Virus record (IMG/VR): IMGVR_UViG_3300033149_007257
Span: 1-42,136 of that record
Reading direction: 5' to 3' (one strand)
Source of the DNA: a virus
DNA: 42,136 nucleotides
The position numbers were made by a program, and so were the translations under genes. Positions 1 to 41,518 of the stretch are shown one piece after another; within the stretch, counting starts at the first letter, position 1, and every line of letters starts with the position of its first letter. Below the pieces are notes generated by a model. It made no database searches. It saw only the letters and a list, made by a program, of their open reading frames with translations, and was not told where the DNA came from.

Positions 1-114
1 GAGAGGTCAGAGATGATCTTCTCCCCAAGCTCAATCACCTCTGGCGAAAGCGTCAGGTCAGCCCTCCGATCCCTCCCCCTCTCCGCCCACACGAGCAGCA
101 CACGCGCAAGGAAA
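1..114. repeat. Terminal direct repeat, left copy (circular closure)
   Basis: These 114 bases are identical to 42023-42136. One reading frame runs unbroken through the junction, which shows that the contig is a closed circle or a terminally redundant phage genome rather than two copies of a biological repeat. The unique length is 42,022 bp. A physical 114-bp terminal repeat cannot be told from an assembly overlap by sequence alone. Confidence 0.95.
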
Positions 115-698
115 CCTCCACCTATGGCCGTAGCGGGGATTATGTCGCGGAGCCACACGACCGTGCTTCCGCCCAGGATGTTCACGCAGACCTTTCGGAG
201 AACCTCGTACTCGTGCGCGCGTGTGAGGTATGCATGATACTCAGGACTTTTGTACAAGGGCGTCAAAACCGTGAGGAGATCATCCATCATCGCGCCCTTG
301 CTTGCGAGGCCAGCGAACTCTTGTGCCGTGACATAGACACTCGCGTCCAGATAGTCAAGACCATCACTTGTTTTCCTTTGACTGAGCTTGGACAGGTAGC
401 CCATAAGGGAGCTCCCTGTAAGACGTCCAGGAAAAAACACGGGAGCGTTGGGACACTTTTCCAAGAACGCGATGCCGATGTCTATGGCGGTGTCCTTTTT
501 TACCTTTCCGCTCGCGCCGATGAGGAAAATATACTCGTTCGGGTAGAGCAGATAATATCCCCTATTCACCCAACACTTCCGTCCAAGCATCCCAAGCACG
601 CAGCTCGTGGCGACCCACTTGTGAAAAAGCTCAGGACTCTCTTGGATTTTCGTGTACTCAAGCCATGCGCGGATGAGGCCGTCTCCGAGTTGTCTCAT
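1..698 (-). CDS. DUF3987-like phage replicative helicase/primase ATPase, N-terminal part (cut by contig end)
   Basis: This is the first 232 residues of a protein whose remainder lies at 41515-42022; joined through the 114-bp redundancy it is 401 aa. ATG 698 is the only possible start because a TAG codon directly precedes it. The layout matches DUF3987-type phage/plasmid ATPases: a hydrophobic strand and P-loop-like GASGKVKKDT (61-70), a Walker B-like strand ending VYVTAQEF (E127), a polar NILGGSTVVWLRDIIP sensor segment (173-188), and GGGFLARVLLVW (193-204) with a candidate arginine finger at R199. The P-loop departs from GxxxxGK[ST], although I recall variant loops in this family. It probably unwinds or primes DNA with the neighbouring polymerase. 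It overlaps the upstream 60-aa gene by 41 nt and has a weak Shine-Dalgarno, suggesting translational coupling. Confidence 0.75.
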   Translation of the reverse strand, partial: MRQLGDGLIRAWLEYTKIQESPELFHKWVATSCVLGMLGRKCWVNRGYYLLYPNEYIFLIGASGKVKKDTAIDIGIAFLEKCPNAPVFFPGRLTGSSLMGYLSKLSQRKTSDGLDYLDASVYVTAQEFAGLASKGAMMDDLLTVLTPLYKSPEYHAYLTRAHEYEVLRKVCVNILGGSTVVWLRDIIPATAIGGGFLARVLLVWAERGRDRRADLTLSPEVIELGEKIISDL

Positions 699-840
699 CT
701 ATCTGATGCTCTTTCCCAAAGTATGGATGTTTTATCAAGTGTCGCATCTCCCGCTTTGACACAGGAATGCACCCGAAAGGTGGGGCTTTCTTGATCCTCT
801 CGACCAGATCGGCAATCTCATCCTCAGTTAGGTCTTTCAT
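658..840 (-). CDS. Hypothetical 60-aa protein between polymerase and helicase
   Basis: A small acidic-then-basic protein. Its ATG (840-838) shares a base with the polymerase stop codon (TGATG), so it is translated by coupling. It begins MKDLTEDEIADLVERIKK, a predicted amphipathic helix, and ends in an Arg-rich tail (TRRRPHPR) that overlaps the start of the helicase gene. No family is recognised. Its position between polymerase and helicase suggests a replisome accessory role, which is inference only. The longer version of this frame, reaching up to 1236, is a shadow of the polymerase. Confidence 0.6.
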   Translation of the reverse strand: MKDLTEDEIADLVERIKKAPPFGCIPVSKREMRHLIKHPYFGKEHQIDETTRRRPHPRMA

Positions 841-3206
841 CACAGCTCCTCCTCTTCTTCCACATCCACCAGCTCTCCCCAGTTTGTTCCTTTTTTGATC
901 TCCACAGGGACTACCATGTCCCCAAGCACCTTGATCTCCATAGCACGCTTTATAAGCGTCCTGACCTCCCCCTCTTGATCGGGGGAGCACTGCACCAAGA
1001 TTGCATCGTGGTTTTGCAGTAGAATCTCTGCGCCCTCTGGGAGCGAAGCATAGAGGGAGATGATCCCGAGGTTTATGAGATCCGCCGTGCCGCTTTGCGG
1101 ACGGTAGTCTATCGCCTTTCGGATCGTGGCCGCACCACGGGTCCCCCGGAGCGGTCCGAAGAACATCCTCTTCCGCCCGAAGGGTGAGTCGATACTCCTC
1201 GTTCGACGAAGCTCCTCCTTGACCTCTGCGTGCCATGCTTTTATGCGAACCCAGTGCGCATAGTATGAGTCAAGGAGGGCCTTCGCTTCATTTGTGTCCT
1301 GTGGGATGTAAACGTCTGGAGGAGTCACCCCCCGAAGGGCCAGCTTTTCCCCCCTGAGGACTGTCTTCTGGCGCATCGTGATGAGAAAGGACCTTGCTCC
1401 AACACCATAGTTCGCTGCGTGGCCAAGATGCTTTGCAGCCTGGCGAAGGGCAGGTGGGACGTTGTCGTAGGACACCCCCGGAAACACGCTGGTTGCGTTG
1501 ACACGGTGGATGTCTTTTCCCTCATTGAAGGCTGCTTGCATGTGTCGTTCTTTCGAGAGCCATGCAACGAAACGTGCCTCGACCTGTCTGAGGTCTGCGT
1601 AGAGGAAGATTTTTCCCTCATCTGCGATGAACTGGCGGCGCTCAGGGACGGGGACGTTCTGGAGGTCCATCCCAGTGTTCCTCCAGGTTTTGGTCGAGCT
1701 CCACCTCCCTGTCACTGTTCCCCCAACGTTCCAGGAGCATCGGATGCGATTGTCGTCGTCAAGAGCACCTTTGTAGTACGTCCCCAGGAGCTTTCGGAGA
1801 TAGCGAATGAGGACAATCAGGCGTGTTTCTGGGATGTCATGCTTTCGCGCGAGCGTTTCGAGGGCGTCCTCGTTCGTGGTCGGACGGCGCGTTTTGCGAT
1901 GGAGGATCGGAGGGATGCCCCTCTTCTCGTATAGGAAGTTGATCATCTGCGTCGGGCTGTTGGTGTTGATCTCCTCGCCCGCGAGCTCATTGAGCGTGCG
2001 TTGCATGACGAGAAGCTTCTCCTCAAGCTTTCGAGTCTCGTTTGCTCTCCAGCCGAGGTCGCACTTGATCCCGCGCTCTTGCATGTGGATCGCTGGGCCA
2101 AGAACGGGGTGGAGGACACGGAAGTATAGCTTGTCTGTCCCGAACGCACGAAGTTGTCTGTCGAGACGCATCGCGACGCGATAGGCTGCAAGACAGTCGA
2201 GGGCGTTGTATAGACAATATTCCACGCTTCCCTGGTGTTTGAGGTCATAGTAGTATGGGATGTCTGTGTAGATGCTCGTGAGCGTCTCCAGCCCCCTCGG
2301 GATTTCGGGGAAGAGGGCCGTGTGGGCGATCATCGTGTCCATCCAAAAGTTCTCGACCACGATCCCGATGCGATTCAGGATAGGAATGTCAAACACGGCG
2401 TTCTGGACGATCTTTCTCGATTTATTTGCACAGAGCGCAGCGATGGCGTCCCAGATTGCAATTTCCTCGGCAAGTTCATACCTGGGGAGCCCAAGGGTCT
2501 TCTCGTTGGCAACGACGAACGAGATGCTCACAGCGTAGTCGGGAGATGGTGCAAAGCCGAAGTGCGTGATTGCGGGGGAGTGGAGTCTTGTCTCTATGTC
2601 AAGTGCAATATACGGAGCATGGATCGCATGTTCAATCTCCTGGATTGCGTCCTCTGGGGTCACGGGGACGACGATGTTGTCCCAATTGAAGGGTGGGGTG
2701 TAGACGGGGGTCTTTGATTCAACTGCAACGCGCTTCATGTCGAGGATGCAAAGGGGAGACCAGTTCCACTTACGTCGGACGGCGGCAGGATGGACAATTG
2801 GGATCGCCTTCCCGAGGTCCGTGGGGATGATGCTCCCACGCCAGTCTGTGATCCCCTGCTTTCCTGCGACCGCACGAAGAGCCTCCTCCCCAAGGAGCAC
2901 GATGACGTTCGATTCAATTGAGCGGAGCGTTTCCTTGACGCGCTCCCGTCCGGCAAGAAGCTCAGCCGTGGGCTGCTTGTCCTTGTAAAAGCAATCCTCG
3001 AACTTCCCCCGTGGCTTTCGCTGGATTACGTTGTCTATGTAACACTGGTCCCTCATGATCCCTGCTGCTTGAAGCCACCTGTCGAGGAGTCTCCCTGACG
3101 TTCCCACGAAGGGTTTTCCTTGTATAAGTTCCTCGGTGCCTGGGGCCTCTCCTATAATTGCAATCGGTGCGTCCTGCGGTCCGGTTCCCGGAACAATTTT
3201 TGTCAT
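840..3206 (-). CDS. Fusion of uracil-DNA glycosylase, 3'-5' exonuclease and family A DNA polymerase
   Basis: A 788-aa replicative polymerase. Residues 1-160 match family 4-type UDG: GEAPG (19-23), GKPFVG (30-35) and the HPAA motif (139-142). The cysteine pair that normally precedes motif 1 and helps bind 4Fe-4S is missing. Residues 197-350 are a proofreading exonuclease with intact DIET (D203, E205), FD273 and YNALD (Y333, D337). Residues 365-788 are the PolA palm and fingers: TGRW (499-502), motif A YADLRQVEAR (D538), motif B R588/K592/Y600, and motif C HDA (733-735) in place of the usual HDE. The position equivalent to E. coli F762 is H596, which is unusual. Start ATG 3206 follows GGAGAGGAGGAG. 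This is the probable main replicase. The UDG part may remove or sense uracil ahead of synthesis (inference). Confidence 0.93.
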   Translation of the reverse strand: MTKIVPGTGPQDAPIAIIGEAPGTEELIQGKPFVGTSGRLLDRWLQAAGIMRDQCYIDNVIQRKPRGKFEDCFYKDKQPTAELLAGRERVKETLRSIESNVIVLLGEEALRAVAGKQGITDWRGSIIPTDLGKAIPIVHPAAVRRKWNWSPLCILDMKRVAVESKTPVYTPPFNWDNIVVPVTPEDAIQEIEHAIHAPYIALDIETRLHSPAITHFGFAPSPDYAVSISFVVANEKTLGLPRYELAEEIAIWDAIAALCANKSRKIVQNAVFDIPILNRIGIVVENFWMDTMIAHTALFPEIPRGLETLTSIYTDIPYYYDLKHQGSVEYCLYNALDCLAAYRVAMRLDRQLRAFGTDKLYFRVLHPVLGPAIHMQERGIKCDLGWRANETRKLEEKLLVMQRTLNELAGEEINTNSPTQMINFLYEKRGIPPILHRKTRRPTTNEDALETLARKHDIPETRLIVLIRYLRKLLGTYYKGALDDDNRIRCSWNVGGTVTGRWSSTKTWRNTGMDLQNVPVPERRQFIADEGKIFLYADLRQVEARFVAWLSKERHMQAAFNEGKDIHRVNATSVFPGVSYDNVPPALRQAAKHLGHAANYGVGARSFLITMRQKTVLRGEKLALRGVTPPDVYIPQDTNEAKALLDSYYAHWVRIKAWHAEVKEELRRTRSIDSPFGRKRMFFGPLRGTRGAATIRKAIDYRPQSGTADLINLGIISLYASLPEGAEILLQNHDAILVQCSPDQEGEVRTLIKRAMEIKVLGDMVVPVEIKKGTNWGELVDVEEEEEL

Positions 3207-3457: not shown

Positions 3458-4777
3458 TCAAGCACCTTCTGTTTCCGCCCCTTCCTCCTCCGCCGCGTGA
3501 ATCCAAACGAGGGCGTCGGTGTAGTAGTCCTCTCGGATCTCACACGCCACAATCTCCCGTCCACAAGCATGTGCGGCAATCACGCTCGTCCCGCTTCCCA
3601 TCATGGGATCAAGGATGACCTCCTGTGGAAGCGTATAGACCTCTATAATCTCCCGAATGAGCTCTACTGGCTTCGTGGTCGGGTGCCGTCGACCCGCTCC
3701 ACTTGCACGCTCGTGGCGGAACATTGTCCCATGAAAGCTCGTGAGCGCACGTTCGCCCTTCATGAGATCCATAAAGACCTCGTGCTCCGGTGAAAGCCAC
3801 TTATTGTGCGGACGACCTGGGATCTTCTTGTCCCAAATCCCGGGGACGTTTGCGGGGGTGAAGCCGATGTGACGAGCAATGTCGAGCAAGAAGCTATAAT
3901 GTTGCTCACCACAAAACATCACCATATGACGGTCTCTACGCAGGAGACGATAGCACTCCACAAGGAGCCTCTCGATCTGTTCAAGCGCACTCGCTTCTTC
4001 GTCTGTAAACACGTCCGACGTTCTGTCCCCCACGACGGGCTTGTGGTAGTCCCCGTGCGTAAACATCTCGCTCTGGTCAATCCCAATTCCCCATGGAGGG
4101 TCCGCAACGACGAAGTCAAAGCTCTCGTCCGCCAGTTGCTTGGCAAGGACGAAAAAGTCCTTATTGTAGACCCCGTCGAGCTCCCCACGTTCCTTTTTTA
4201 GTTGGTCCGCAAGAAGAATACTGGCCGCCCTTCGGCGGAGTCGTGAGAGCTTTCGGAACGCACGGTTCTTGTTCTTCTCCTTCGCGAGGAGAGGAAGATG
4301 AAGGAGAGCTTCCGCAAGCTGGATGTCCTGCGAGAGCGGACCGACGCTTTGTCCAAGACTCTCCGCAGTGTCACGCAGTCCCCAGCCTTCCTTCTTCTTC
4401 CCGAGGTCTGTTCGTGCGCCCTGTTTTGACTTCCCGTGGAGTGCTTGCTTGAGGAGGTGGAGCTCCCTTTTTGCTTTCACCTCTTCTGTCCACTCCAGGT
4501 CCTTTCGGTGAAGGTTTTCCTCAAGCTCAATCTCAAGACGCTGGAACTCGTCGAGGTCCGAGCGCTTTGTGGCCTCAATCGTTTCCCATCCGAGCTCTTT
4601 CGCCGCGCGGAGACGTCGCTCACCAGCGACAAGAGCCGCTTTTCCGTCGGCTGTTATCTCCACGACGATCGGCTCAATGAGCCCGACGCGCTGCATGCTT
4701 TCACGAAGACCTTGTAGATCTCCAAAATCCTGGCGAAAGCGGTCTCCGATGGTGATGTCACTGATCTTCAGTTGCAT
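3458..4777 (-). CDS. ParB-like domain fused to DNA adenine/cytosine-N4 methyltransferase
   Basis: A 439-aa protein. Residues 1-110 form a ParB/sulfiredoxin-like fold with the GERRLRAAKELGW box (52-64) and ENLHRKDLEW (88-97). An alpha-helical HTH-like segment follows (about 134-158). Residues 205-439 form an amino-methyltransferase with catalytic DPPW (226-229, motif IV) placed before the S-adenosylmethionine motif DPMMGSGTS (390-398, motif I), which is the beta-class order. DPPW favours N6-adenine. No restriction endonuclease lies nearby, so it is an orphan enzyme, probably for protecting or marking phage DNA. Such ParB-methyltransferase fusions are known in phages. ATG 4777 follows AGGAGAGGGAAC. 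The gene is preceded by a structured spacer (4818-4873). Confidence 0.9.
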   Translation of the reverse strand: MQLKISDITIGDRFRQDFGDLQGLRESMQRVGLIEPIVVEITADGKAALVAGERRLRAAKELGWETIEATKRSDLDEFQRLEIELEENLHRKDLEWTEEVKAKRELHLLKQALHGKSKQGARTDLGKKKEGWGLRDTAESLGQSVGPLSQDIQLAEALLHLPLLAKEKNKNRAFRKLSRLRRRAASILLADQLKKERGELDGVYNKDFFVLAKQLADESFDFVVADPPWGIGIDQSEMFTHGDYHKPVVGDRTSDVFTDEEASALEQIERLLVECYRLLRRDRHMVMFCGEQHYSFLLDIARHIGFTPANVPGIWDKKIPGRPHNKWLSPEHEVFMDLMKGERALTSFHGTMFRHERASGAGRRHPTTKPVELIREIIEVYTLPQEVILDPMMGSGTSVIAAHACGREIVACEIREDYYTDALVWIHAAEEEGAETEGA

Positions 4778-7904: not shown

Positions 7905-8258
7905 CTAAAGTAAAGAAATACTCTCCACAACGTCACCCTCTTGCATCTCCTGCTCTACCACCTCCTTCCACTTAAGCCTGTTGAAGAATGTAACGCCAAC
8001 CACCGCCCCTCTCGGAATGGTGATTGAGCACGCTATCCCGTCGTCGGAAAGCGCACGTGTGGGCGCGAGAAGGACCGCCCGTTCAGTCACCTCCCGAACC
8101 CACCCGATCGTGATGACCGGACGTAGTCTCACGACAGCCTTTTCTGTCCATCCTGCGGCGAACGTTCCCACGTTCCACCGCACAGCGCATAGGCGACCAA
8201 CATTCCCCTTCTCCATGCGGGGCGCGTGCGTGAGGATGGACTCTGTGACCCCAATCAT
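7905..8258 (-). CDS. Hypothetical 117-aa protein in the recombination cluster
   Basis: A beta-rich soluble protein (VRLRPVITIGWVREVTE; CSITIPRGAVVGVTFF). It has no recognised domain. ATG 8258 overlaps the Sak4-like gene stop as ATGA, and its stop TAG is adjacent to the next gene. Being placed between the ATPase and the DUF669-like protein suggests a function in the same DNA-processing unit (inference). Confidence 0.7.
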   Translation of the reverse strand: MIGVTESILTHAPRMEKGNVGRLCAVRWNVGTFAAGWTEKAVVRLRPVITIGWVREVTERAVLLAPTRALSDDGIACSITIPRGAVVGVTFFNRLKWKEVVEQEMQEGDVVESISLL

Positions 8259-9001
8259 GTTTTCTCACCTCCCTTCCACGCCTCCATGCGCATGTCGTTC
8301 GGGAGCACAGGAGGCAAACCAGGATGAATCGTCTTCCCGAGCGTGAAAAGCCCACGAGAACGCGTGAGGACAAGGTAGCGCGGGGCTCCCTCATCGTCCG
8401 GCGACCCGATGACCGTTCGGAAGACGTTCCCAAAATATGTGGGCATGATCGGACGGATCGCCTGTCCATAGGAATACGGCGTGTAGAACATCTTCCCCGT
8501 GAGCTCGTCCTTCCCGAGCTCCTCGTGCGCGGTCATGAGAAAAAGCCTACACGGAATCCCAACGAGGGCGGGAAGCACCTCCAGCCACTTTGCGTTCAGG
8601 ACCCCATACTCCGGCTGCGTGATCGGGAGGCCAAGACGTGAGGCGTTCGCGTGCATTTGACGGTTAGCTATGTCGCAGAGCTTGCTCCAGGAGTCCAGCA
8701 CGACAACGTCCCATTCCTCTGCGTAGAGCTTATTCACGCGTCTCACGAGTTTTCGGTATGCCATCGGGCGCGTGGTCGAGGAAACGTGCTCGTCTCTCGC
8801 GTGCATGTCGAGCGCCTCGAGGATCGGAGAGTCTGGGTATTCCTCTATCGTCCAGCCCTTCCGTCTTTCCTCTGGGAGATGCTTCGCCTTGCACTCGAGA
8901 TCCAGCATGAGCTTCTTCCCGTCGCGTCCAGGGGCAGTGGACGCAAACCACGTCTTTCCGCTTCCGCTTGCTCCGATGACGAGAATTGTCTCCTCAGCCA
9001 T
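8255..9001 (-). CDS. Sak4-like RecA-fold ATPase (single-strand annealing)
   Basis: A 248-aa protein with a P-loop GASGSGKT (10-17) and a Walker B strand DVVVLD (98-103, D103), consistent with the Sak4/phage nucleotide-binding AAA group. These proteins are RecA-core ATPases that assist strand annealing and work with an SSB-like partner. Upstream AAAAAGGAGGACGAGCACA gives a strong start at 9001. Neighbours are a Cas4-like nuclease and a DUF669-like protein, the usual company of this family. Confidence 0.82.
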   Translation of the reverse strand: MAEETILVIGASGSGKTWFASTAPGRDGKKLMLDLECKAKHLPEERRKGWTIEEYPDSPILEALDMHARDEHVSSTTRPMAYRKLVRRVNKLYAEEWDVVVLDSWSKLCDIANRQMHANASRLGLPITQPEYGVLNAKWLEVLPALVGIPCRLFLMTAHEELGKDELTGKMFYTPYSYGQAIRPIMPTYFGNVFRTVIGSPDDEGAPRYLVLTRSRGLFTLGKTIHPGLPPVLPNDMRMEAWKGGEKT

Positions 9002-9197
9002 TGTGCTCGTCCTCCTTTTTGCAATGGTCTCTCACCCAAAGCTCCAACCTCACGAGCCGGTTGTTGAGCTCACCCGTGTAGACATTCATGCCCTCCTGAC
9101 GCTTTTCCAGAACGTTCAGTCGCCGACGATTCCGAAGAAGCAAGACGAGAAGAGGAACAGCCACTGCCGACGTTGCTGCGACGTTGATCACAATCAT
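8994..9197 (-). CDS. Small membrane-anchored coiled-coil protein
   Basis: 67 aa. An N-terminal transmembrane helix (VAATSAVAVPLLVLLL) is followed by a basic stop-transfer RNRRR and an amphipathic helix (LEKRQEGMNV, NNRLVRLELWV) likely to form a coiled coil. The topology suggests N-out/C-in. It overlaps both neighbours by a few bases. It may tether DNA-processing proteins to the membrane or act as a small lysis or exclusion protein. No family is recognised. Confidence 0.7.
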   Translation of the reverse strand: MIVINVAATSAVAVPLLVLLLRNRRRLNVLEKRQEGMNVYTGELNNRLVRLELWVRDHCKKEDEHNG

Positions 9198-10078
9198 ACG
9201 CTCTTGTCCTCCTTTCCCTCAAGCTCGAAGGGCTCCCAGGCTTTGCGCTCGTAGAGGGTCTCCACGAGACTGGCTGGTGTGCCCGAAATACACAGCGGAC
9301 GATACTCGCAACCGCTATATGAGTGGCAATGGAGAGGGTTTTGTGGGAAGACCTTTTGTGGAGACTCTGCACGCGCGAGGCGATCCTTCCAGGAGCGCAC
9401 GGCGGAACGGACGGTGAGCTTCCACTCCTCAACATCTGCCTCCGTGCGTGACGTAAAATCTCGAAGGAACCTGACTTTTGGGTTCTCCGCCGTGTTGATG
9501 CCGTCGAGCAGGCACGCAGAGCACCTGTGACCAGACGTTTGATAAACACTCCAAACGTATCCCGTGATCGTCGTGTGCGGATGCCAGCCCTTCAGCCACC
9601 GTGCACCGAGGCCAGAGGCTGTCTTTGTCTCCATCACATAAACCTCTCCGTCCTCCCACTGGATGATCCTGTCAAAGCGCCCCCCGTAGACAAAATCATC
9701 AAACGGGACCGCAAAGCCGACTTCGCTTTCGAGGACCTCAAAGGGCTCCCTCTCGTAGGTCGTGGCGTAGTCCATCATGACACGCATTCCGAGTGCCCTC
9801 GACCTGCGGTCCCCCTCGTCCTCCTCAAGGTTCCCAAACGTCATGAGGGCTGCCTTGAGGGCGTCTTTTGTTTTCCCTCCCTTGTACCACGTGTGGACCG
9901 CGTCGTGCATAGCCGCGCCGAACCTCAGTGCAATTGCGGGCTTGCGGGGGACGATTCCGTAGCCGAACCTCAAGAGTGCTTTGCGTGGACAGCCCATCAC
10001 CACGCTCAGCCAATGCCCATCCACCACACGGGGCATCGTGAGATTTGGTGATTCTCGCTCGTAGAGGCTATCTTTCAT
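9194..10078 (-). CDS. Cas4/RecB-like PD-(D/E)XK nuclease with probable 4Fe-4S cluster
   Basis: 294 aa. The nuclease core is visible as H58 (MHDAVH), D136 (GGRFDR) and E150-x-K152 (METKT). One N-terminal cysteine, C30 (MGCPRK), and three C-terminal ones, C251, C257 and C263 (CHSYSGCEYRPLC), match the four-cysteine 4Fe-4S arrangement of Cas4 and AddB. It probably works as the phage exonuclease generating single-stranded ends for the Sak4-like ATPase. No cas1, cas2 or CRISPR array is present, so a CRISPR role is not indicated. ATG 10078 follows GAGGAGGACATGAAGA. Confidence 0.87.
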   Translation of the reverse strand: MKDSLYERESPNLTMPRVVDGHWLSVVMGCPRKALLRFGYGIVPRKPAIALRFGAAMHDAVHTWYKGGKTKDALKAALMTFGNLEEDEGDRRSRALGMRVMMDYATTYEREPFEVLESEVGFAVPFDDFVYGGRFDRIIQWEDGEVYVMETKTASGLGARWLKGWHPHTTITGYVWSVYQTSGHRCSACLLDGINTAENPKVRFLRDFTSRTEADVEEWKLTVRSAVRSWKDRLARAESPQKVFPQNPLHCHSYSGCEYRPLCISGTPASLVETLYERKAWEPFELEGKEDKSV

Positions 10079-13383: not shown

Positions 13384-13606
13384 GCGAATTGGCGTAACTT
13401 GGAGGGGCTTGTTGTAAGTTATTGGTGAATAAGGCTTTAGGGCAAGGGGGAAAAACTTAGGGCAAGGGCCGGAATGCGCGTTAAGGGCGTTTCGGCGCTG
13501 TTGGCCTAACTCCTTGCGGAATAAGGCTTTAGGAAAAGCGTTGTGCAAATGCAACATTGCCCTAAGTCTTTGCGGAATAAGGCTTTACGTGTTGCAACAA
13601 GCGCCC

Positions 13607-13635
13607 TTTATTGCGAAAACTTGACAACCTGTCAA
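13607..13635 (-). promoter_or_regulatory. Possible second leftward promoter inside the iteron array
   Basis: On the minus strand TTGACA (13635-13630), a 17-bp spacer and AATAAA (13612-13607) form a moderate promoter between iterons 3 and 4. TTGACA is also part of a TTGACA/TGTCAA inverted repeat. The -10 box is weak. Confidence 0.3.
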
Positions 13636-13930
13636 ATTATCATGCCTTTTTGCCTTCTCCTAACTCCTTGCTGTGCAATACGATAGGACGACGATAATTC
13701 TTATGCCATTGGCATTTTCCCTAACTCCTTTGCCCGCAAGGACTTACGCCAATGTCCGGTATCCCAAAACAGACTTCAACACCCGCCCTTGCCCTAAACC
13801 CTTACACTGCAAACACTTAGGACGGCATTTCAACGACCCCAGTTTGCGCTTTTGCCCTAACCCCTTATTCTGCAAACACTTAGGACGACAGCCCGAGAGT
13901 GCTGCAAAAGGGCGCGTCCATGTCCTATAC

Positions 13931-13975
13931 GACATATAGTATGCATATATATATTTAAGTCTATATATAGTATAG
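13931..13975. other. AT-rich block, candidate DNA-unwinding element
   Basis: About 45 bases made of ATATA runs and CTATATATAG-type near-palindromes, standing out in an otherwise GC-balanced genome. Seven iterons lie to its left and two to its right, the layout of an iteron-type replication origin. Function is inferred from composition and context. Confidence 0.6.
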
Positions 13976-13976
13976 T

Positions 13977-13993
13977 CCTGCCAAAGTGGCAGG
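13977..13993. promoter_or_regulatory. Operator-like palindrome, copy 1
   Basis: CCTGCCAAAGTGGCAGG is a perfect 7-bp palindrome around AAG, directly beside the AT-rich block. Its 15-bp core recurs inverted at 14354-14368, so it looks like a protein-binding site rather than a terminator (no T-run). Confidence 0.55.
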
Positions 13994-14276
13994 AGAATTA
14001 AGGTGATTGTGCTGCATTTTTCAACGACCTGTTGAAGTGTCGAGATTCCACAACACTATGTCGGGGGGGAGCTGATCTTCATGTCGAAGAAATTGGCATA
14101 AGTGTTTGCAGTGTAAGGAGTTAGGGCAGAATGGGGGCGCTTCACGATGTTGAACTCAAAAAGGGCATTCCCTAAGTCGTTGCATAGAAAGGCTTTAGGA
14201 AAAGCCTACCATTCCGGTAGGGTTTCAAAAATCGTTGAAATTGTTTCAGCGTCGAGAGGCTTTCCGTGCACACGTT

Positions 14277-34227: not shown

Positions 34228-35478
34228 ATGCCAGGACAAATTGTCGTGCTACCGAGGCCGGAGAACCGTGGAGCACGGGAGTTTCTTCAGGGGGCGCAAG
34301 TTGGGACATCCGCTGCGCGTGCTCTGCTTGGGTTCAAGGAGCTTCAACAGAGGGAAAAGGAACAATCGTCCCTCGAGGACTATCGCCAGAAGCTCCTGGA
34401 TCTCCAGTGGAGCGCGCAGACGCTGAACCAGCTCAACACGGTTTTAACTGCGCTCCCAAAAGACCTTAAGCCACAGGTCTTGGTAAGGTTCGCCGCGACA
34501 GGACCAGGAAAGAAACTACTGGGTGACATGGCAGACGCGCTTCAGGTCGCGCAGAGCTCCACCGCCACCGCGAAGAGGCTCCAGGAGCTCCAGAGCAAAA
34601 TAATAGAAACGAAGTACCAGTACCTCCAAGAGCACCCAGATGAAGTCGCCCGTAGCGAGCTTGGACTCCCGTCTGCTGCAGAAGAGGCTTTAACAAGGGA
34701 ACGAGGAGCCCTCCTCGAGGCGACCAGGAAGCACATGGGTGAACCCCCCAAACAGGCACCTGAGGTCGAACGGGAAGCAAAACTGCGGAACGATCTCCTG
34801 AAAGGTCTCATAGAGGGAACACTTGACGAACGGCAAATGGAAGTTGCACGGGCGCTCTTTAAGCTTCCGGCGGACGAGACCGCAGCGAGACTACAGTCCA
34901 GGTACGATTTCTTGACAGAGCACGGTTTCCCTGAACCTACGGCTGCCATGATGGCACTTGGGTTCCCACCATCGACCAAGAAGGCCGAGGACTTTGGAGA
35001 CCGGATCCGCGACGCACGGGCGCTCGGTGTGGTTGATCCAGAAGGCTCACCCAGCGCAAATCTTGCTGGCCTTGCTATGGTAGACTCCCTCGGGGCTCGT
35101 ACCAAACAGATCACAGATGGGCTAAGGCGTGCTCGGGAGGACCCAACAAGCAAAGAGGCAAACATGTGGCGAAGGGTTGAGATGCGCGCTGCGAGAAACC
35201 CTGTGGTGCAAAAGCAGAAGCGCTTGGGGATGGACTGGCTCGCGAGGGACATACGCTTTAACGACCTGACGGAGCTTGAGCAGCAGCAGTGGCGTGTGAG
35301 CGAGTTCGCCAAGATGTTAGGGAAGGGTGGTGGAGCCAGAACGAAGCCTCCGGTTGCGTATCGTCCTGCTACCGACGAAGAAATCAACGAGGCCCTCGAC
35401 GCGTTCCCAGAAGGGGCGTCAGATAAGGATATAGAAGGCTGGCTCAACAGGAACAAGGGAGCTACGGCTTATGAGTAG
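34228..35478 (+). CDS. Internal virion protein, 416 aa
   Basis: GAGG precedes ATG 34228. Almost entirely helical and charged (KELQQREKEQSSLEDYRQK; LQVAQSSTATAKRLQELQS), typical of coiled-coil ejection proteins. No catalytic motif is visible. It overlaps the 1606-aa gene by eight bases. The gap 34198-34227 holds only a short AT palindrome (GTTTTA/TAAAAC). Confidence 0.7.
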   Translation: MPGQIVVLPRPENRGAREFLQGAQVGTSAARALLGFKELQQREKEQSSLEDYRQKLLDLQWSAQTLNQLNTVLTALPKDLKPQVLVRFAATGPGKKLLGDMADALQVAQSSTATAKRLQELQSKIIETKYQYLQEHPDEVARSELGLPSAAEEALTRERGALLEATRKHMGEPPKQAPEVEREAKLRNDLLKGLIEGTLDERQMEVARALFKLPADETAARLQSRYDFLTEHGFPEPTAAMMALGFPPSTKKAEDFGDRIRDARALGVVDPEGSPSANLAGLAMVDSLGARTKQITDGLRRAREDPTSKEANMWRRVEMRAARNPVVQKQKRLGMDWLARDIRFNDLTELEQQQWRVSEFAKMLGKGGGARTKPPVAYRPATDEEINEALDAFPEGASDKDIEGWLNRNKGATAYE

Positions 35479-38400
35479 CACGCTCATAGACAGAGTCCAG
35501 GCGGCACGGAGAGCGAGAGCAGGTCAGGAAACACCGACCGCTGGGCGCTTGGAGAGGGTTCGAAGAGAACGCCAGGCGTACAGGGAGACGCTCTTCAACC
35601 TAATGCCCAAGCCGTGGGGGACGCCGACGCAAAACCCAGACGGCTGGACCACATGGCTGCACGCGAAGAAGCTGGCTCGCGGACTGGACGTTGGAGAGCA
35701 AACTGTCTATGAACGGACCGCTCGTCGTGCGGCGGCCCAGAACAAGTCAAAGTTGAGTCAACTCGTGGATGACATTACCTTCCGTGCCAATCGTGTGGCG
35801 AACGCCTATACCCTCGGAGCACTGGACCGACTCGTCCCAGGATTGACGGACTACGTGCAGAGGTATCGAGAAGAAACTCCTGGATTTAGTGAGTCTGAGC
35901 TTGATCGGGTCGGTGAGGTCCTGGCCACCTGGTCGGCGGAGACACTCGGGATAGTAACTGCGTTCGAGGCGATCAGCAAGGTGTCTCCTCTGGCGAGAAC
36001 TGTGCTCGCGAGACTTCCAGGACGAGCTCGTGCTACCAAGGCTCTCACAAGGCTGCCTGGTGCACAGACACCGAGCGTCCTCTTCGAGGCGCTCCGCCGA
36101 ACGCATCCGACGGTCGCAAGGGTCTTAGCCCAGGCAGCAAGAGAGGTTCCACGGAGCGTCGCGGTCGGGACCGGAGTGACCGCTTTTCGAGGATGGACTC
36201 ACGGTATTCCACTTTTTCAGAATCTGGCACGCTACCCTCAGGCTGCCGCTTGGTGGGGCGGGCTCGGAGCGATCTTCGCAGGAGTGTCTGCGTACTCCCG
36301 CATCAAGGCGATCAGGGCGGACAAGCGGCTTGCCGAGGACGCTGCCACGATTGCGAGACACTACCGTAACTATACGAAGGGCAAGGGGAACTGGAGAGCA
36401 ACGCTCCGCGCGTACGAAAGATTCATAAAGGACATGGAAGCGTCAGGGCATCCTGTGGATATGACGTTGAAGCTGAAAGTCAGAGCGGTCAGAAAAGCCG
36501 TCAGGGGCCACAGTAAAGCGGCCAGGTTGTATCGGCAAGAGCTGGACCGTAATGCACGAAGCTGGGCACCGTCGGAGGTCAAGGTTGTCCCGCAGGAAGC
36601 ACTTCCGCCAGGAGGGAAAGTGTCGACTGGAACAAAGGCTCCTCCTCCCCCACCCCCGCCTCCTCCTCCAGCAGAGCCCCCCGCTGCACCTCCGGTCACC
36701 TCCGCCGTTGCTGCGCGTCCCACGGAGAGTCTGGGGGAGGTCCACCCCATCTCTATGGAGCACGTTACGCCAGGAATGCTGAACGCAGCCAGAAACCGTC
36801 CGACGGGGAAACTCACGCTCAAGACAGAGGGTGGTGATATAATGCTCGTGCATGGGGGAGCGTTCTTGACCGTAGCCCGAGAGCGCGGGGAGAAGCAGAT
36901 CAAGGGGACACTGGACGGAGAGCCCGTGTTCGTCGACACAGACACGCTGGAGGTCACGAGAAGAAAGACGGTAAAAGCAGGCCCTATAATCCGCCGGATC
37001 GCCAAGGAAATGGGGATCGACATCAACGAGGTCGGGGAGGGAAGTGGAATCGGTGGAGCCATCACACGAAAAGACCTTGAAGCCTTTAGAGAGAAAGGAG
37101 CCCCGTCAGAGGACGTCGCCCACACGCAGCTTGAACTTATGCCTAGGCAGGTTCGGCCCCTTATCCGTGAGGCGCTGGACCAGCAGGCAGCCGTGGAGAG
37201 GTTGGGGATGACCGACGTTGTCTGGCACCCAGACGCCTCCCAGGCACGACCATTGTGGAACTGGCTGAAACGGAACCAGGACAAGGAACTCGCGTTCGGC
37301 AAGGTTGAGGCTTCCGGGAGTGGTTGGGAGTACAATTCACCTGTGGGTAGCCTTGTGTTATGGTCGCCAGTATCCTTAGGGGAACCCTGGCTTGCATCAT
37401 ACAGACCAAAGAAAGGAGTCGTAGATGAGGACACCAGCGGAAGACTTCGTCCGCGCGTGCAAGAGGGCGGAGGAGTACTGCCGTCGGCAGTTTGGTTTAG
37501 AGCTGAATCACAACAGCGCGCTCGCGCAGGTGCTGGTGAGACACTTCCTATCAGCCTCCGCTTCCCAGGGTGGGAAAGCTTCCCGACATGGAAAGCGAAA
37601 AAAGTAGCCGACATGTTAAGTACAACAAGGTTCCCTCCTGTGCTCCATCCGCTTGTGTACGAGGGTAGGGTGAAGTTTAGGTACGTGGACCCAGACGAGA
37701 TAGATGACCCAATTCTTCGCGCGACGCTCTCGGGGTACCAAGCTTGGTACCAGCCGCCCCCAAGAGGCGGGGGCGGGGAGGAGTATATTGCTGTCCCCAG
37801 TCATACAGTATTTAGTAGCGATAGTGCAATACACGAGCTCACACACGCAGCTGAGTGGCATGGGATGATTCCAAAGGAAGTGACAGATTACACGCTGGAG
37901 ATTGCTGAGAGAAAAGGAGCGGAGCTCGTAGAGAAGATAGCACAAACCTATCCCGAGAGCGTGGTCCAACATGCTATTACCAAAGTTCATCATGCGCTGC
38001 CACACGAGCAGATGACCGAGCTGATAAACCTCCTCAATCTGGATCGAAGATTCTTCAAGCCCATCGCGAGCCTGGTCTCAGCCAGCCGGGTCGAGGCACA
38101 GCTTTACATAGGACAGTACTTGAGACGTCTGTACAAAATACCGCTCCCTCCGTGGCACGCCGAATCGCTGGAGTCAGAGATATTGGCGTACACCGCAGAG
38201 AGTGACCCAGACGTCCTTCGTATAGAAGGAACAACACGGGTCCCGCCAATACCGTACCGTATCTATGCACGTGCAAAGGAAAAGCCTCCAGAGGATGTCC
38301 TCAAAGGACTTCCTCCCATGCACTTCCGAGAGCCCTCAGTTCCCATGAAGCTTGCCTCAAAGGAATACACTCTCCGTCTGATGGGAGTGGAGCCTCTCCT

Positions 38401-40291
38401 GAAGGACACCGTCGAGGCATACAAGAGGATGTCCCTCGAACTCCGTGACATCGACCGATGGCTCAGGAAGATAACAAAAAAGATAGAAAAGCAGGCTGGC
38501 ACCACTATAAGACAAAAGCTCAGGGCCGTCGTGAAGGGCGTCCCGACACCTGCAATAGCTCGGATGAGGAACCTGCTGGACGAGAACGCCAACGCGCCAG
38601 CGTACTTGAAGGGCGAAGATCTGAAGAACTTCCAGGACCTCCGCGCCTTTACACAACTGATGCTCCGTCGCGTGAACGAGGTCCGAGCAGTCATGAACAT
38701 TAAGCCGATAGAGGACATTGGCGAGTACGTTCCGCACTTCTTTGACGCGCTGACGGAGAGCATCCTCCGTAGAGGAGACATTGAGGGAATCCGGTACCAT
38801 GATATTTCCGAGAACCTCCGCTACTGGCTTTCACGCAAGACCTATGCCGCATTGTCTGAGCACATGTGGAACCCGACAGAAAAGACGAGAAAGCTCGTGC
38901 GAGAGGACGTGAAGAGACACTTCTCAAAGGACCTCCCGTCGCTCCTGCGGACGATGGCGCGATTTGACCTGCGGGAGATCTATCTAACGGAGCCGATGGC
39001 AGTTTTGCGGGCGAGGCTAAGTGCGCTCGGGGACGCTATTCCGGCCAGCGTGAGGAGGGAGATCGACAAGTTCCTGCGATATGACATCCGAAACTACATG
39101 ACTGAGCTGGACCAGTACCTAAATGCAACGCTTCGGCCCGCAGCAGATGTCATGAACCTCATCCTCACGCCCTTCGGGAGACATATCGCGAATCCCATCC
39201 GCACGATGAGCGTCCTTGCACGTCGTAGCGTCGTCGGAGGAACTCTGATCGCCAGACCAAAGATCGTAATTAGGAACCTCCTGCAACGGATGCTCATCAT
39301 GGATCTCTATCCGCTGCACATAGCTGCTATGGCACAGGTACTCCGTCCTCCTCCAGAGGTGAGAAAGCTTATTAAAGAGACGACGTTCTACCAAATCTCG
39401 AGACGCGGAGGATTTGAAGACATCAGCGGGATACTCCTTTCTCCGGAGCGCCTGGGTATGCTCCCCTACCAAATAAGCCACGCGGGGCTGGACTTCCTGA
39501 GCAACGTGAACGTGTCCATGACCGCAGGGGAACTCTACGCGGAGATGATGCTAAAGTGGCAAGACACCGAGGCCGGAAGAAAGGCTATTGAGGCTCTGGT
39601 CGAGGGAAAGGGGATCATGGGGAGGGCTTGGCACACGGCGTACAGGCTTTTCAGGAGACCCCTCCCAACAAGAGAAAGCCTCAGGTGGACCGAGCAGGAC
39701 CTCGTGGACGAAGCTGTTGATGCTGGATTGCTAACGCAGTGGTTGTACTCCTCGACCGGCCTGCCTGGACTTTGGAGAGGACAAGCTGCCAGGATGGCGT
39801 TGTCCCTACAGAGCTGGTGGTTTAACTACATGTTCATGCACCTTAGAGAGTGTGCACACAGGATGGCGTTCGGGACCACAAGTCGCGGAAAGATTCTCAG
39901 ACCGCAGGATCGCATAAACGCGCTCAAGGGGATGTTGATGATGCTCGCAGTGCTAAACGCGGTTGCAGAGGTGACAGGACTTGGCTATCAGAGATTCTTC
40001 CTCCCTCCGGGGTCGGCCCCACAATACCTTTCTCCAACACCGAGACTTCTTCTCAACGTTTATAGATTCCTTACAGCGACGACCCCGAAGGCAAGGAGAT
40101 CTGCCTGGGGTGGGATCAAGACGTCCGCAAAAGCACACATTCCGTTCTGGCTTGCTGTGAAGGAGATCAACGAACTCGGCAAGGGCGAGATCACCGTCAG
40201 GGAGTGGCTGTTCTACCTGTTGAATCCAGAGACACTGGAGCAGGCACAGGAAAGGAGAAAGGTTCGTTTCAACGTGCCACTTGGACCATAA
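35471..40291 (+). CDS. Giant internal/ejection protein with PSBD-like domain and zincin motif
   Basis: 1606 aa. Residues ~1-370 are helical and basic. A Pro-rich linker (PPPPPPPPPP, ~391-400) follows. Residues ~501-545 (VKAGPIIRRIAKEMGIDINE, then GSGIGGAITRKDLEAF) match a peripheral-subunit-binding domain like those of 2-oxoacid dehydrogenase E2 chains. H788-E-L-T-H792 in SAIHELTHAAEWHG is an HExxH zinc peptidase motif. The C-terminal ~800 residues are mostly helical (ASRVEAQLYIGQYLRRLYK; RRSVVGGTLIARPKIVIRN), as in large polyvalent ejection proteins. It probably enters the cell with the DNA. A region at ~652-712 overlaps a nested ORF and looks out of character. Confidence 0.82.
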   Translation: MSSTLIDRVQAARRARAGQETPTAGRLERVRRERQAYRETLFNLMPKPWGTPTQNPDGWTTWLHAKKLARGLDVGEQTVYERTARRAAAQNKSKLSQLVDDITFRANRVANAYTLGALDRLVPGLTDYVQRYREETPGFSESELDRVGEVLATWSAETLGIVTAFEAISKVSPLARTVLARLPGRARATKALTRLPGAQTPSVLFEALRRTHPTVARVLAQAAREVPRSVAVGTGVTAFRGWTHGIPLFQNLARYPQAAAWWGGLGAIFAGVSAYSRIKAIRADKRLAEDAATIARHYRNYTKGKGNWRATLRAYERFIKDMEASGHPVDMTLKLKVRAVRKAVRGHSKAARLYRQELDRNARSWAPSEVKVVPQEALPPGGKVSTGTKAPPPPPPPPPPAEPPAAPPVTSAVAARPTESLGEVHPISMEHVTPGMLNAARNRPTGKLTLKTEGGDIMLVHGGAFLTVARERGEKQIKGTLDGEPVFVDTDTLEVTRRKTVKAGPIIRRIAKEMGIDINEVGEGSGIGGAITRKDLEAFREKGAPSEDVAHTQLELMPRQVRPLIREALDQQAAVERLGMTDVVWHPDASQARPLWNWLKRNQDKELAFGKVEASGSGWEYNSPVGSLVLWSPVSLGEPWLASYRPKKGVVDEDTSGRLRPRVQEGGGVLPSAVWFRAESQQRARAGAGETLPISLRFPGWESFPTWKAKKVADMLSTTRFPPVLHPLVYEGRVKFRYVDPDEIDDPILRATLSGYQAWYQPPPRGGGGEEYIAVPSHTVFSSDSAIHELTHAAEWHGMIPKEVTDYTLEIAERKGAELVEKIAQTYPESVVQHAITKVHHALPHEQMTELINLLNLDRRFFKPIASLVSASRVEAQLYIGQYLRRLYKIPLPPWHAESLESEILAYTAESDPDVLRIEGTTRVPPIPYRIYARAKEKPPEDVLKGLPPMHFREPSVPMKLASKEYTLRLMGVEPLLKDTVEAYKRMSLELRDIDRWLRKITKKIEKQAGTTIRQKLRAVVKGVPTPAIARMRNLLDENANAPAYLKGEDLKNFQDLRAFTQLMLRRVNEVRAVMNIKPIEDIGEYVPHFFDALTESILRRGDIEGIRYHDISENLRYWLSRKTYAALSEHMWNPTEKTRKLVREDVKRHFSKDLPSLLRTMARFDLREIYLTEPMAVLRARLSALGDAIPASVRREIDKFLRYDIRNYMTELDQYLNATLRPAADVMNLILTPFGRHIANPIRTMSVLARRSVVGGTLIARPKIVIRNLLQRMLIMDLYPLHIAAMAQVLRPPPEVRKLIKETTFYQISRRGGFEDISGILLSPERLGMLPYQISHAGLDFLSNVNVSMTAGELYAEMMLKWQDTEAGRKAIEALVEGKGIMGRAWHTAYRLFRRPLPTRESLRWTEQDLVDEAVDAGLLTQWLYSSTGLPGLWRGQAARMALSLQSWWFNYMFMHLRECAHRMAFGTTSRGKILRPQDRINALKGMLMMLAVLNAVAEVTGLGYQRFFLPPGSAPQYLSPTPRLLLNVYRFLTATTPKARRSAWGGIKTSAKAHIPFWLAVKEINELGKGEITVREWLFYLLNPETLEQAQERRKVRFNVPLGP
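37425..37607 (+). CDS. Nested 60-aa ORF inside the giant gene
   Basis: In another frame, ATG 37425 follows AGAAAGGAGTCGTAG, one of the better ribosome sites in the arm. The product (MRTPAEDFVRACKRAEEY; LAQVLVRHFLSAS) is a plausible helix with a basic tail. The main frame over the same bases lacks a clear domain. It could be a real overprinted gene or the remains of a separate gene that has been fused. Confidence 0.4.
   Translation: MRTPAEDFVRACKRAEEYCRRQFGLELNHNSALAQVLVRHFLSASASQGGKASRHGKRKK
37734..37776. repeat. Two adjacent strong hairpins inside the giant gene
   Basis: GGTACCAAGCTTGGTACC (37734-37751) is a perfect 18-bp palindrome. It is followed by CCGCCCCC and GGGGGCGG (37754-37761 and 37769-37776), perfect 8-bp arms around AAGAGGC. 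They fall between the nested ORF and the HELTH motif, in a QPPPRGGGGEE linker. Confidence 0.75.
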
Positions 40292-40306: not shown

Positions 40307-41518
40307 ATGAGGATATTGTTCGTGAGCAAGAGCGCATCCCTCCTGCCGGTGGCCTGGAGGGTGCAGGAGGAGGGGCACAAAGTTCACTGCGTGCTGCCTG
40401 GTGGCTTTGGCGAGGGTGAGGGCTTTGTGCCGGTAGAGTACGTCCCGAACGCCGAGGAGTTGACACACGTAGGTGTTCTTGAGGCAATAGAGGACGTCGG
40501 CTATGACTTCGCCGTTTGTGATGGTCTCGGTTTAGGAACGACAAGGGAGCTTTTGCACAAGCGCTCACCAACGCTCGGTCCTGTTCCTTTGACAGACAGG
40601 GCACAGACGGACACCTCATTTGCGGAGAGGATGTTTCGCCTTGCTGGCATCCCAACGCCACCGGCAAGAACGTTCAGGGGAAACAAGGATGGAGCCATCC
40701 GCTACGCGCGGGAGTGCAACTGCCCAATGATCATGCGAACGCCGCACGGCACGTGGGCTCCGACGAAGGATGCACACGAAGCAATAAGCTATGTGTCCAT
40801 CATGCTCGCACCAGAGATCACTCTGCAAACGCGTCCTCCAGGCATCGAGGTCGTGCATGGTGGCTGGTTCGACGGGCACTCATTCGCGACCCCTCTCGTG
40901 ACGTCCTTCTGGTGGCACACGTTGATGCCAGGAGACCTTGGACCGTGTTCTGTTGAACCTACGGGGACGTCTGGATGGCTTCACTGGGACATTCCCCTTT
41001 TGCATAAGGAAAGCCTCGCAAAGCTCGTCCCGATCCTGCGGAAGGCTGACTTTAGAGGGGGGATCGCACTCCGGCTTGTTCTCCAAAAGGAGGACCTCTT
41101 CGCGCTGGAGCTTATGACAGACATCACGACATTCTACCCGTTCCTTGATGGATACAAGAAGGTTGCAGACCTGCTCTACAACGTTGCGCACGGGCGCGCC
41201 GCGTGGAAGCCGAGGAATAGGATGTACGGCAGCGCAGCGCTCTACACATCCCACGCCGGAGTTCCAATAGGAGGACTTGTCGACGGGAACGTTCGGCATC
41301 TGTGGCTCCAGAACGCGCGGAAGGTGGACGGCATTCCCTATGCAATCGGCGGACGGATAGGCTATGTCACTGCGTGGGGCACGGACGCCGGGGAGGCCAG
41401 AAGACGGGTGAACCGCACGATGCAGACGATCAAGATTCTCGACGTGGGCTACAGGAACGACATCGGAAGGACGACCTCGCGCTGGCGAGACCAGCTTGCG
41501 GCCTGGCACTGGTTTTAG
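40307..41518 (+). CDS. PurD-like ATP-grasp protein
   Basis: 403 aa; AGAAGGGAG precedes ATG 40307. MRILFVSKSASLLPVAWRV is a Rossmann-like start, as in phosphoribosylamine-glycine ligase. AGIPTPPARTF (before the ATP-grasp lid) and HGGWFDGHSFATPLVTSFWW then MPGDLGPCSVEPTG parallel the PurD 'GDxGPxTGGMG' loop. The GGM is replaced by EPTG. It ligates an amine to a carboxylate at the cost of ATP; the substrate is unknown (purine supply, peptide tagging or DNA/protein modification). The stop codon overlaps that of the convergent helicase gene. Confidence 0.78.
   Translation: MRILFVSKSASLLPVAWRVQEEGHKVHCVLPGGFGEGEGFVPVEYVPNAEELTHVGVLEAIEDVGYDFAVCDGLGLGTTRELLHKRSPTLGPVPLTDRAQTDTSFAERMFRLAGIPTPPARTFRGNKDGAIRYARECNCPMIMRTPHGTWAPTKDAHEAISYVSIMLAPEITLQTRPPGIEVVHGGWFDGHSFATPLVTSFWWHTLMPGDLGPCSVEPTGTSGWLHWDIPLLHKESLAKLVPILRKADFRGGIALRLVLQKEDLFALELMTDITTFYPFLDGYKKVADLLYNVAHGRAAWKPRNRMYGSAALYTSHAGVPIGGLVDGNVRHLWLQNARKVDGIPYAIGGRIGYVTAWGTDAGEARRRVNRTMQTIKILDVGYRNDIGRTTSRWRDQLAAWHWF

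Follow-up and report, generated by a model that had tools for sequence, protein, structure and literature searches.

A probable phage replicase with a predicted uracil-DNA glycosylase domain belongs to a clade of family A DNA polymerases with histidine at position 762

Fusions of a uracil-DNA glycosylase (UDG) to a family A DNA polymerase (PolA) are already known from SPO1 gp31, PaBG gp205 and the phiLo polymerase 9QHS, and PHROG 17 and GenBank phage records contain many further examples. A full-text search of open papers found none that mentions this fusion for SPO1 or T5. The window analyzed here, a 42,136-base virus contig with terminase and major head genes, encodes a protein of this kind (Table 1). 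Bacillus phage SPO1 gp31 combines, like the window protein, a UDG-like domain, an exonuclease and a polymerase, and its motif C reads HDS, but it carries Phe at position 762 (E. coli PolA numbering) and its UDG motif 1 is altered to QENPF. SPO1 differs further from the window in encoding a dUMP hydroxymethylase and a dUTPase-family gene. Gp205 of Pseudomonas phage PaBG, one of the Lupandier jumbo phages, is a published fusion with the same order of UDG, exonuclease and polymerase (PMC7412058), whereas it has F762, a length of 1032 aa and a UDG with neither the GE of motif 1 nor the HP of motif 2. The phiLo family A polymerase, whose structure is solved (PDB 9QHS), holds in its chain a UDG fold that matched the window UDG with a Z of 15.9, although the chain has 1142 residues and the UDG identity is 24%. 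All three domains and His762 are shared with the window protein by the polymerases of Microcystis phage Mel-JY34 (XAI96477.1) and Manatee Spring ctMlz233 (UOF77826.1). Both have a ParB/methyltransferase-type gene upstream, as in the window, and Mel-JY34 also has a DUF3987-type gene downstream. They differ from the window protein in overall sequence (~30% identity), in motif C (HDS versus HDA), and in having Asn where it has Lys at the position of N89 in Thermus thermophilus (Tth) UDGa; their records carry no functional description. By analogy only, a UDG is also held at a replicative polymerase in the vaccinia D4/A20/E9 holoenzyme, where D4 is a family 1 UDG and the components are separate subunits with a family B polymerase.

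Residue 762 serves as a marker tying viral PolA to replication speed, fidelity and lifestyle. Viral PolA groups with F, Y or L at this position were described by Nasko et al. 2018, in whose text a search found mention of neither His762 nor a glycosylase, and Keown et al. 2022 (PMC9069017) restricted their set to sequences carrying one of F, L and Y. A sequence-only reading of the window had connected this residue with lifestyle. The connection is published for F, Y and L, but it is not extendable to His, since the 2022 survey kept those three residues only. A diverse His762 clade would escape such a filter, and a large environmental phage family would be missed. Judging from the open papers searched, which are not proof of absence, a His762 clade does not appear to have been described.

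The polymerase gene lies on the minus strand, an orientation that the sequence-only reading had not given. Profile searches placed UDG (PF03167) at aa 6–147 (E 2.3e-24), DNA_pol_A_exo1 (PF01612) at aa 182–351 (E 1.6e-7) and DNA_pol_A (PF00476) at aa 391–778 (E 3.8e-58), while PHROG 17, a phage DNA polymerase family, spanned aa 10–787. In cellular Pol I, a 5' nuclease sits N-terminal of the exonuclease, and this spot is taken here by the UDG. A full-length AlphaFold2 model built from 50 aligned sequences had a mean pLDDT of 93.8 and a pTM of 0.90, and its exonuclease–polymerase part (aa 172–780) matched Klenow with Z 35.8 and rmsd 4.2 over 561 residues. The UDG part was modeled and compared separately, since the list from the full-length comparison was filled by polymerase folds. 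Folded alone, it reached a pLDDT of 97.4 and matched Tth family 4 UDGa (1UI0) with Z 23.2 and rmsd 2.0 over 162 residues; 1VK2, 4ZBX and UdgX entries tied with 1UI0 within 1 Z unit as the best UDG folds. The structure prediction and profile search that the earlier reading had proposed for the UDG half both returned a UDG, and its claim of a UDG domain ahead of a proofreading PolA was borne out.

Table 1. Features of the polymerase locus and its surroundings, with positions in the window.
Feature	Position	Strand	Basis
Primase gene (phrog_14296), cut by contig end, downstream neighbour	2..698	−	E 6.2e-28
60-aa ORF, ATG overlapping polymerase stop codon	658..840	−	ORF
UDG, 3'-5' exonuclease, family A DNA polymerase	840..3206	−	ORF, 788 aa, ATG start
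Family A polymerase domain, aa 391-778	873..2036	−	PF00476; Klenow fold match
Motif C HDA (H733-D734-A735)	1002..1010	−	Alignment
Motif B RQAAKHLGHAANY (R588, K592, H596, N599, Y600)	1407..1445	−	Alignment
H596 codon (CAC), E. coli F762 equivalent	1419..1421	−	Alignment
3'-5' exonuclease domain, aa 175-351	2154..2684	−	PF01612
UDG domain, aa 1-170, predicted family 4 fold without Fe-S cysteines	2697..3206	−	PF03167; 1UI0 match
UDG motif 2 H139-P140 (H139 = Tth UDGa H155)	2787..2792	−	Alignment
K68 at Tth UDGa N89 position (motif 3)	3003..3005	−	Alignment
UDG motif 1 GEAPG, aa 19-23 (E20 = Tth UDGa E41)	3138..3152	−	Alignment
ParB-domain/DNA methyltransferase gene, upstream neighbour	3458..4777	−	PF02195 + PF01555
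Sak4-like ssDNA annealing ATPase, replication module	8255..9001	−	phrog_124, E 1.3e-17
PD-(D/E)XK exonuclease, replication module	9194..10078	−	PF12705, phrog_1218

Alignment with E. coli PolA showed that the family A test residues D705, K758, Y766 and D882 are all present in the window protein (D538, K592, Y600 and D734), with H596, N599 and A735 at the positions of F762, I765 and E883. In the exonuclease, the acidic residues D203, E205, D273 and D337 align with their E. coli counterparts and Y333 is also kept; among 88 aligned fusions, D203, E205, Y333 and D337 were present in all and D273 in 87. The predicted motifs and the exonuclease domain place the enzyme in the proofreading Klenow-type family A. 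The His proposed at position 762 was confirmed, and the F, Y or L of the published Phe762, Tyr762 and Leu762 classes is absent from the window protein, these residues being a survey criterion and no requirement for family A membership. Motif C was also correctly read as HDA. Its description as unusual did not hold and was discarded, as Ser or Ala occupies the last position in 83/88 relatives and HD(S/A) is therefore the norm among them. At position 762 of T7 polymerase, a change of Tyr to Phe halves activity and a change to Leu nearly abolishes it (PMC13228545). In other family A enzymes the residue at this position contacts the nucleotide about to be incorporated; its replacement by His here would probably tune nucleotide selection. 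Two IMG/VR loci, L130 (2780–6100) and L131 (2780–6121), carry an intein-like insert of >300 aa within motif B, which splits the motif between His762-Ala and Thr-Asn765. The placement of such an insert suggests that the His/Asn motif B is a conserved active site.

A query with the single protein found no match among viral contigs; a query with an alignment did. The alignment-based scan of IMG/VR returned at least 506 related stretches, the best 80 of which were retained. His occupied position 762 in 81 of the 88 aligned fusions (with Asn at 765 in 73), and a second IMG/VR scan with the polymerase core alone, without selection for a UDG, gave His762 in 80/80, although both scans started from His762 queries and retained the nearest matches, so that the counts do not give the frequency of His762 among all phage polymerases. 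The two sets overlap by about a dozen contigs, and ~145 distinct IMG/VR contigs of the clade were sampled, with further matches beyond those kept. In the core-only set, a UDG was found in the same or a neighbouring ORF in at least 77/80. Two of the three remaining members are truncated by the contig end, and the third, L136 (2903–5077), is a His762 polymerase with an N-terminal stretch that holds no recognisable UDG (E 0.027). A phylogeny of the polymerase core, proposed in the sequence-only reading as a check, was built with columns 762 and 765 masked. In this tree, 45 His762 sequences grouped together to the exclusion of 17 F/Y762 polymerases, with an SH-aLRT of 99 and a single change (quick search, no bootstrap). 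The window protein falls within the clade as defined by His762 and Asn765 and by a fused or adjacent UDG without Fe-S cysteines. To judge by the aligned members, His762, HD(S/A) and Fe-S loss are clade-wide traits rather than oddities of one sequence. The replicase is split into a UDG–exonuclease gene and a polymerase gene in L132, L173, L177, L180–L183, L185, L186, Kuura (L007) and ctLwi270 (L006). The gaps range from 2 nt (L177) to ~640 nt, with room for small ORFs, and in L132 the ORFs overlap.

The UDG domain shares with Tth UDGa 1UI0 its fold and the pocket residues E41, E47, F54, N80 and H155, which correspond to E20, E26, F33, N59 and H139, but it differs in having lost the four Fe-S cysteines, in Lys for N89 and in its fusion to a polymerase. 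All four main pocket residues (E, F, N and H) were retained in 62/81 His762 fusions. The motif 3 Asn of family 4 UDG (N89) is missing from the window protein, in which an ungapped count along the sequence puts K68 at this position; Asn is found there in 55/81 His762 fusions. The roles of the Tth UDGa pocket residues have been measured, N89A costing ~7-fold and H155S >1000-fold (PMC5387724). The catalytic His is replaced by Ser in 8/88 aligned fusions, and the domain is still kept. The earlier observation that the N-terminal Cys pair is missing was upheld by the alignment and could be widened, as the other two Fe-S cysteines are also gone (0/4 in the window protein) and the full set was found in no His762 fusion. 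The N-terminal CxxC and a third Cys were present in 7/7 F/Y762 fusions aligned there, namely those with a recognisable UDG (ctfzr933, StAshley, Serbin, PMBT14, Almagne, vir526 and ctSAF950). Because the four cysteines are missing, the window domain, with its predicted excision activity, is best classed by fold and pocket as UDGa-like and not as a canonical UDGa. UdgX is also among its nearest folds (Z ~22) and sequences, as would be expected if the domain trapped uracil-DNA covalently in the manner of mycobacterial UdgX. Against this, the window loop RGKFEDCFYKDKQPTAE, aligned with the KRRIH loop that holds the covalently reacting His109, has no His and the Fe-S cysteines are gone; UdgX membership was discarded for lack of this His, and trapping of this kind seems very improbable.

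Selection on the UDG was estimated from dN/dS. In pairs of at least 93% aa identity the values were mostly ~0.01–0.06, near that of the polymerase. More divergent pairs, among them those of the group whose catalytic His has become Ser, often gave ~0.15–0.3 and in a few cases up to ~0.4, and many synonymous distances were saturated. The UDG is strongly constrained, and this constraint is apparently weaker where the pocket differs. These low values speak against the UDG being a leftover of an ancient fusion that selection no longer maintains, as does its retention in the core-only set even where the UDG–exonuclease and the polymerase are separate genes. L136 is the case that such a relic would explain, and we give this explanation almost no credence.

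Weak-to-moderate UDG profile matches (E 8.6e-5 to 1.3e-14) were also found in the N-termini of other phage PolAs, including L191 (T5-like), L193 (Vibrio phage D391), L187, L188 and L190, which come from T5-like, Vibrio, Gordonia, Mycobacterium and Streptomyces phages. This suggests that a decayed UDG may be widespread in phage PolA. Across the fusions compared, the fused UDG is found in three states, with Fe-S ligands present, without them but with the pocket mostly kept (the His762 clade), and degraded. This natural series makes the question of excision versus DNA binding directly testable. The split polymerase of ctLwi270 has Tyr762 and Fe-S cysteines, yet a ParB-type gene lies upstream as in the His762 clade, and it may stand as an intermediate between that clade and the fusions with F/Y762.

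The neighbours of the gene were compared across 160 loci, in which the polymerase positions, and with them the upstream and downstream calls, are approximate. A ParB-methyltransferase homologue was found in 126 loci (upstream in 124) and a primase homologue in 137 (downstream in 128), all on the polymerase strand. The ParB-methyltransferase, UDG-PolA and primase genes form a conserved gene cassette. An integrase was looked for in 50 contigs, the window among them and many of them possibly incomplete, and was not found; this absence suggests that the phages of the clade are virulent, a judgment made without recourse to residue 762. A search for a prophage home in bacterial and archaeal genomes matched six metagenome-assembled-genome contigs, none with a sign of integration. 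Nucleotide enzymes were screened with models for PF00692, MazG, ThyA and ThyX, other nucleotide hydrolases lying outside this screen. Trimeric dUTPase (PF00692) was not found in the 50 contigs including the window, many of them possibly incomplete; as a control, the same search placed six compared F/Y762 phages, and 0/4 named His762 phages, above the cut-off. The dUTPase of Serbin is annotated as another family, pfam08761, outside the clade-wide PF00692 search. ThyA was found in 0/46 His762 contigs and ThyX in 1/46, and the three F762 phages included in this search all have ThyA-like genes. A MazG gene turned up in one contig.

We lean towards reading the window protein as the replicase of a virulent tailed phage with a tethered, predicted UDG domain that scans for uracil and probably excises it. 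It would join a Klenow-type replicative polymerase and its proofreading exonuclease to a family 4-type UDG placed N-terminal to the exonuclease. The UDG would travel with the replisome, scan the template or the new DNA and excise uracil arising from misincorporated dUTP or deaminated cytosine. Uracil excision at the replisome would make sense because these phages appear to have neither their own trimeric dUTPase nor ThyA. The possible anti-uracil or DNA-quality function raised in the sequence-only reading is compatible with this absence in the sampled contigs, with the kept pocket and with strong purifying selection on the UDG. Some features would weigh against a catalytic reading. K68 at the N89 position is one, and uracil cut from a single-stranded template at the fork could leave harmful abasic sites. 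Since members that have lost the catalytic His keep the domain, a purely catalytic function is also disfavoured, and this points to a possible role beyond excision.

The main rival, which we consider plausible but less probable, is that the UDG fold serves the replicase in DNA binding or processivity, with catalysis secondary or dispensable, as for vaccinia D4 with A20. The domain outlasts loss of the pocket not only in the Ser-substituted fusions but also in SPO1 gp31, PaBG gp205 and the T5-like and Gordonia phage polymerases, the pTM of the full-length model may indicate a fixed packing of the module, and D4 in the polymerase holoenzyme offers a precedent (PMC3946371, PMC4450493). The four-residue pocket kept by 62 His762 members should go beyond the needs of DNA binding alone and argues the other way. 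Such a role would be compatible with catalysis and need not exclude it.

Returning to uracil excision by the replicase, a broader form of it is that motif B with His762/Asn765 and the UDG without Fe-S cysteines co-evolved as one uracil-exclusion replicase, whose own nucleotide selectivity and excision replace a phage dUTPase, forming a separate PolA class beside F, Y and L; we regard this as rather doubtful. Somewhat less probable still is that His762/Asn765 read or incorporate an unusual nucleotide while the UDG removes unmodified uracil analogues. Contact of residue 762 with the incoming nucleotide and its link to nucleotide use (PMC13228545) would be in keeping with this, and SPO1, a hydroxymethyluracil phage, also bears a UDG-like domain on its polymerase. 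The near absence of thymidylate synthase families in the screen above speaks against it, and among the window genes searched no base-modification pathway was recognised apart from the ParB-methyltransferase.

Other features of the window were noted. A 35-nt repeat whose ends resemble CCTAA...TTAGG is present in several copies at 13413–14205, together with a related 44-nt family, in a poorly coding stretch separating two divergent gene arms; this is possibly an origin or a regulator-binding region. A 1606-aa protein (35471–40291) matched E3_binding (PF02817) at aa 501–537 and no other family. The 403-aa protein encoded at 40307–41518 gave a sub-threshold match to the phosphoribosylglycinamide synthetase C domain and is possibly an ATP-grasp protein, which would be odd beside structural genes.
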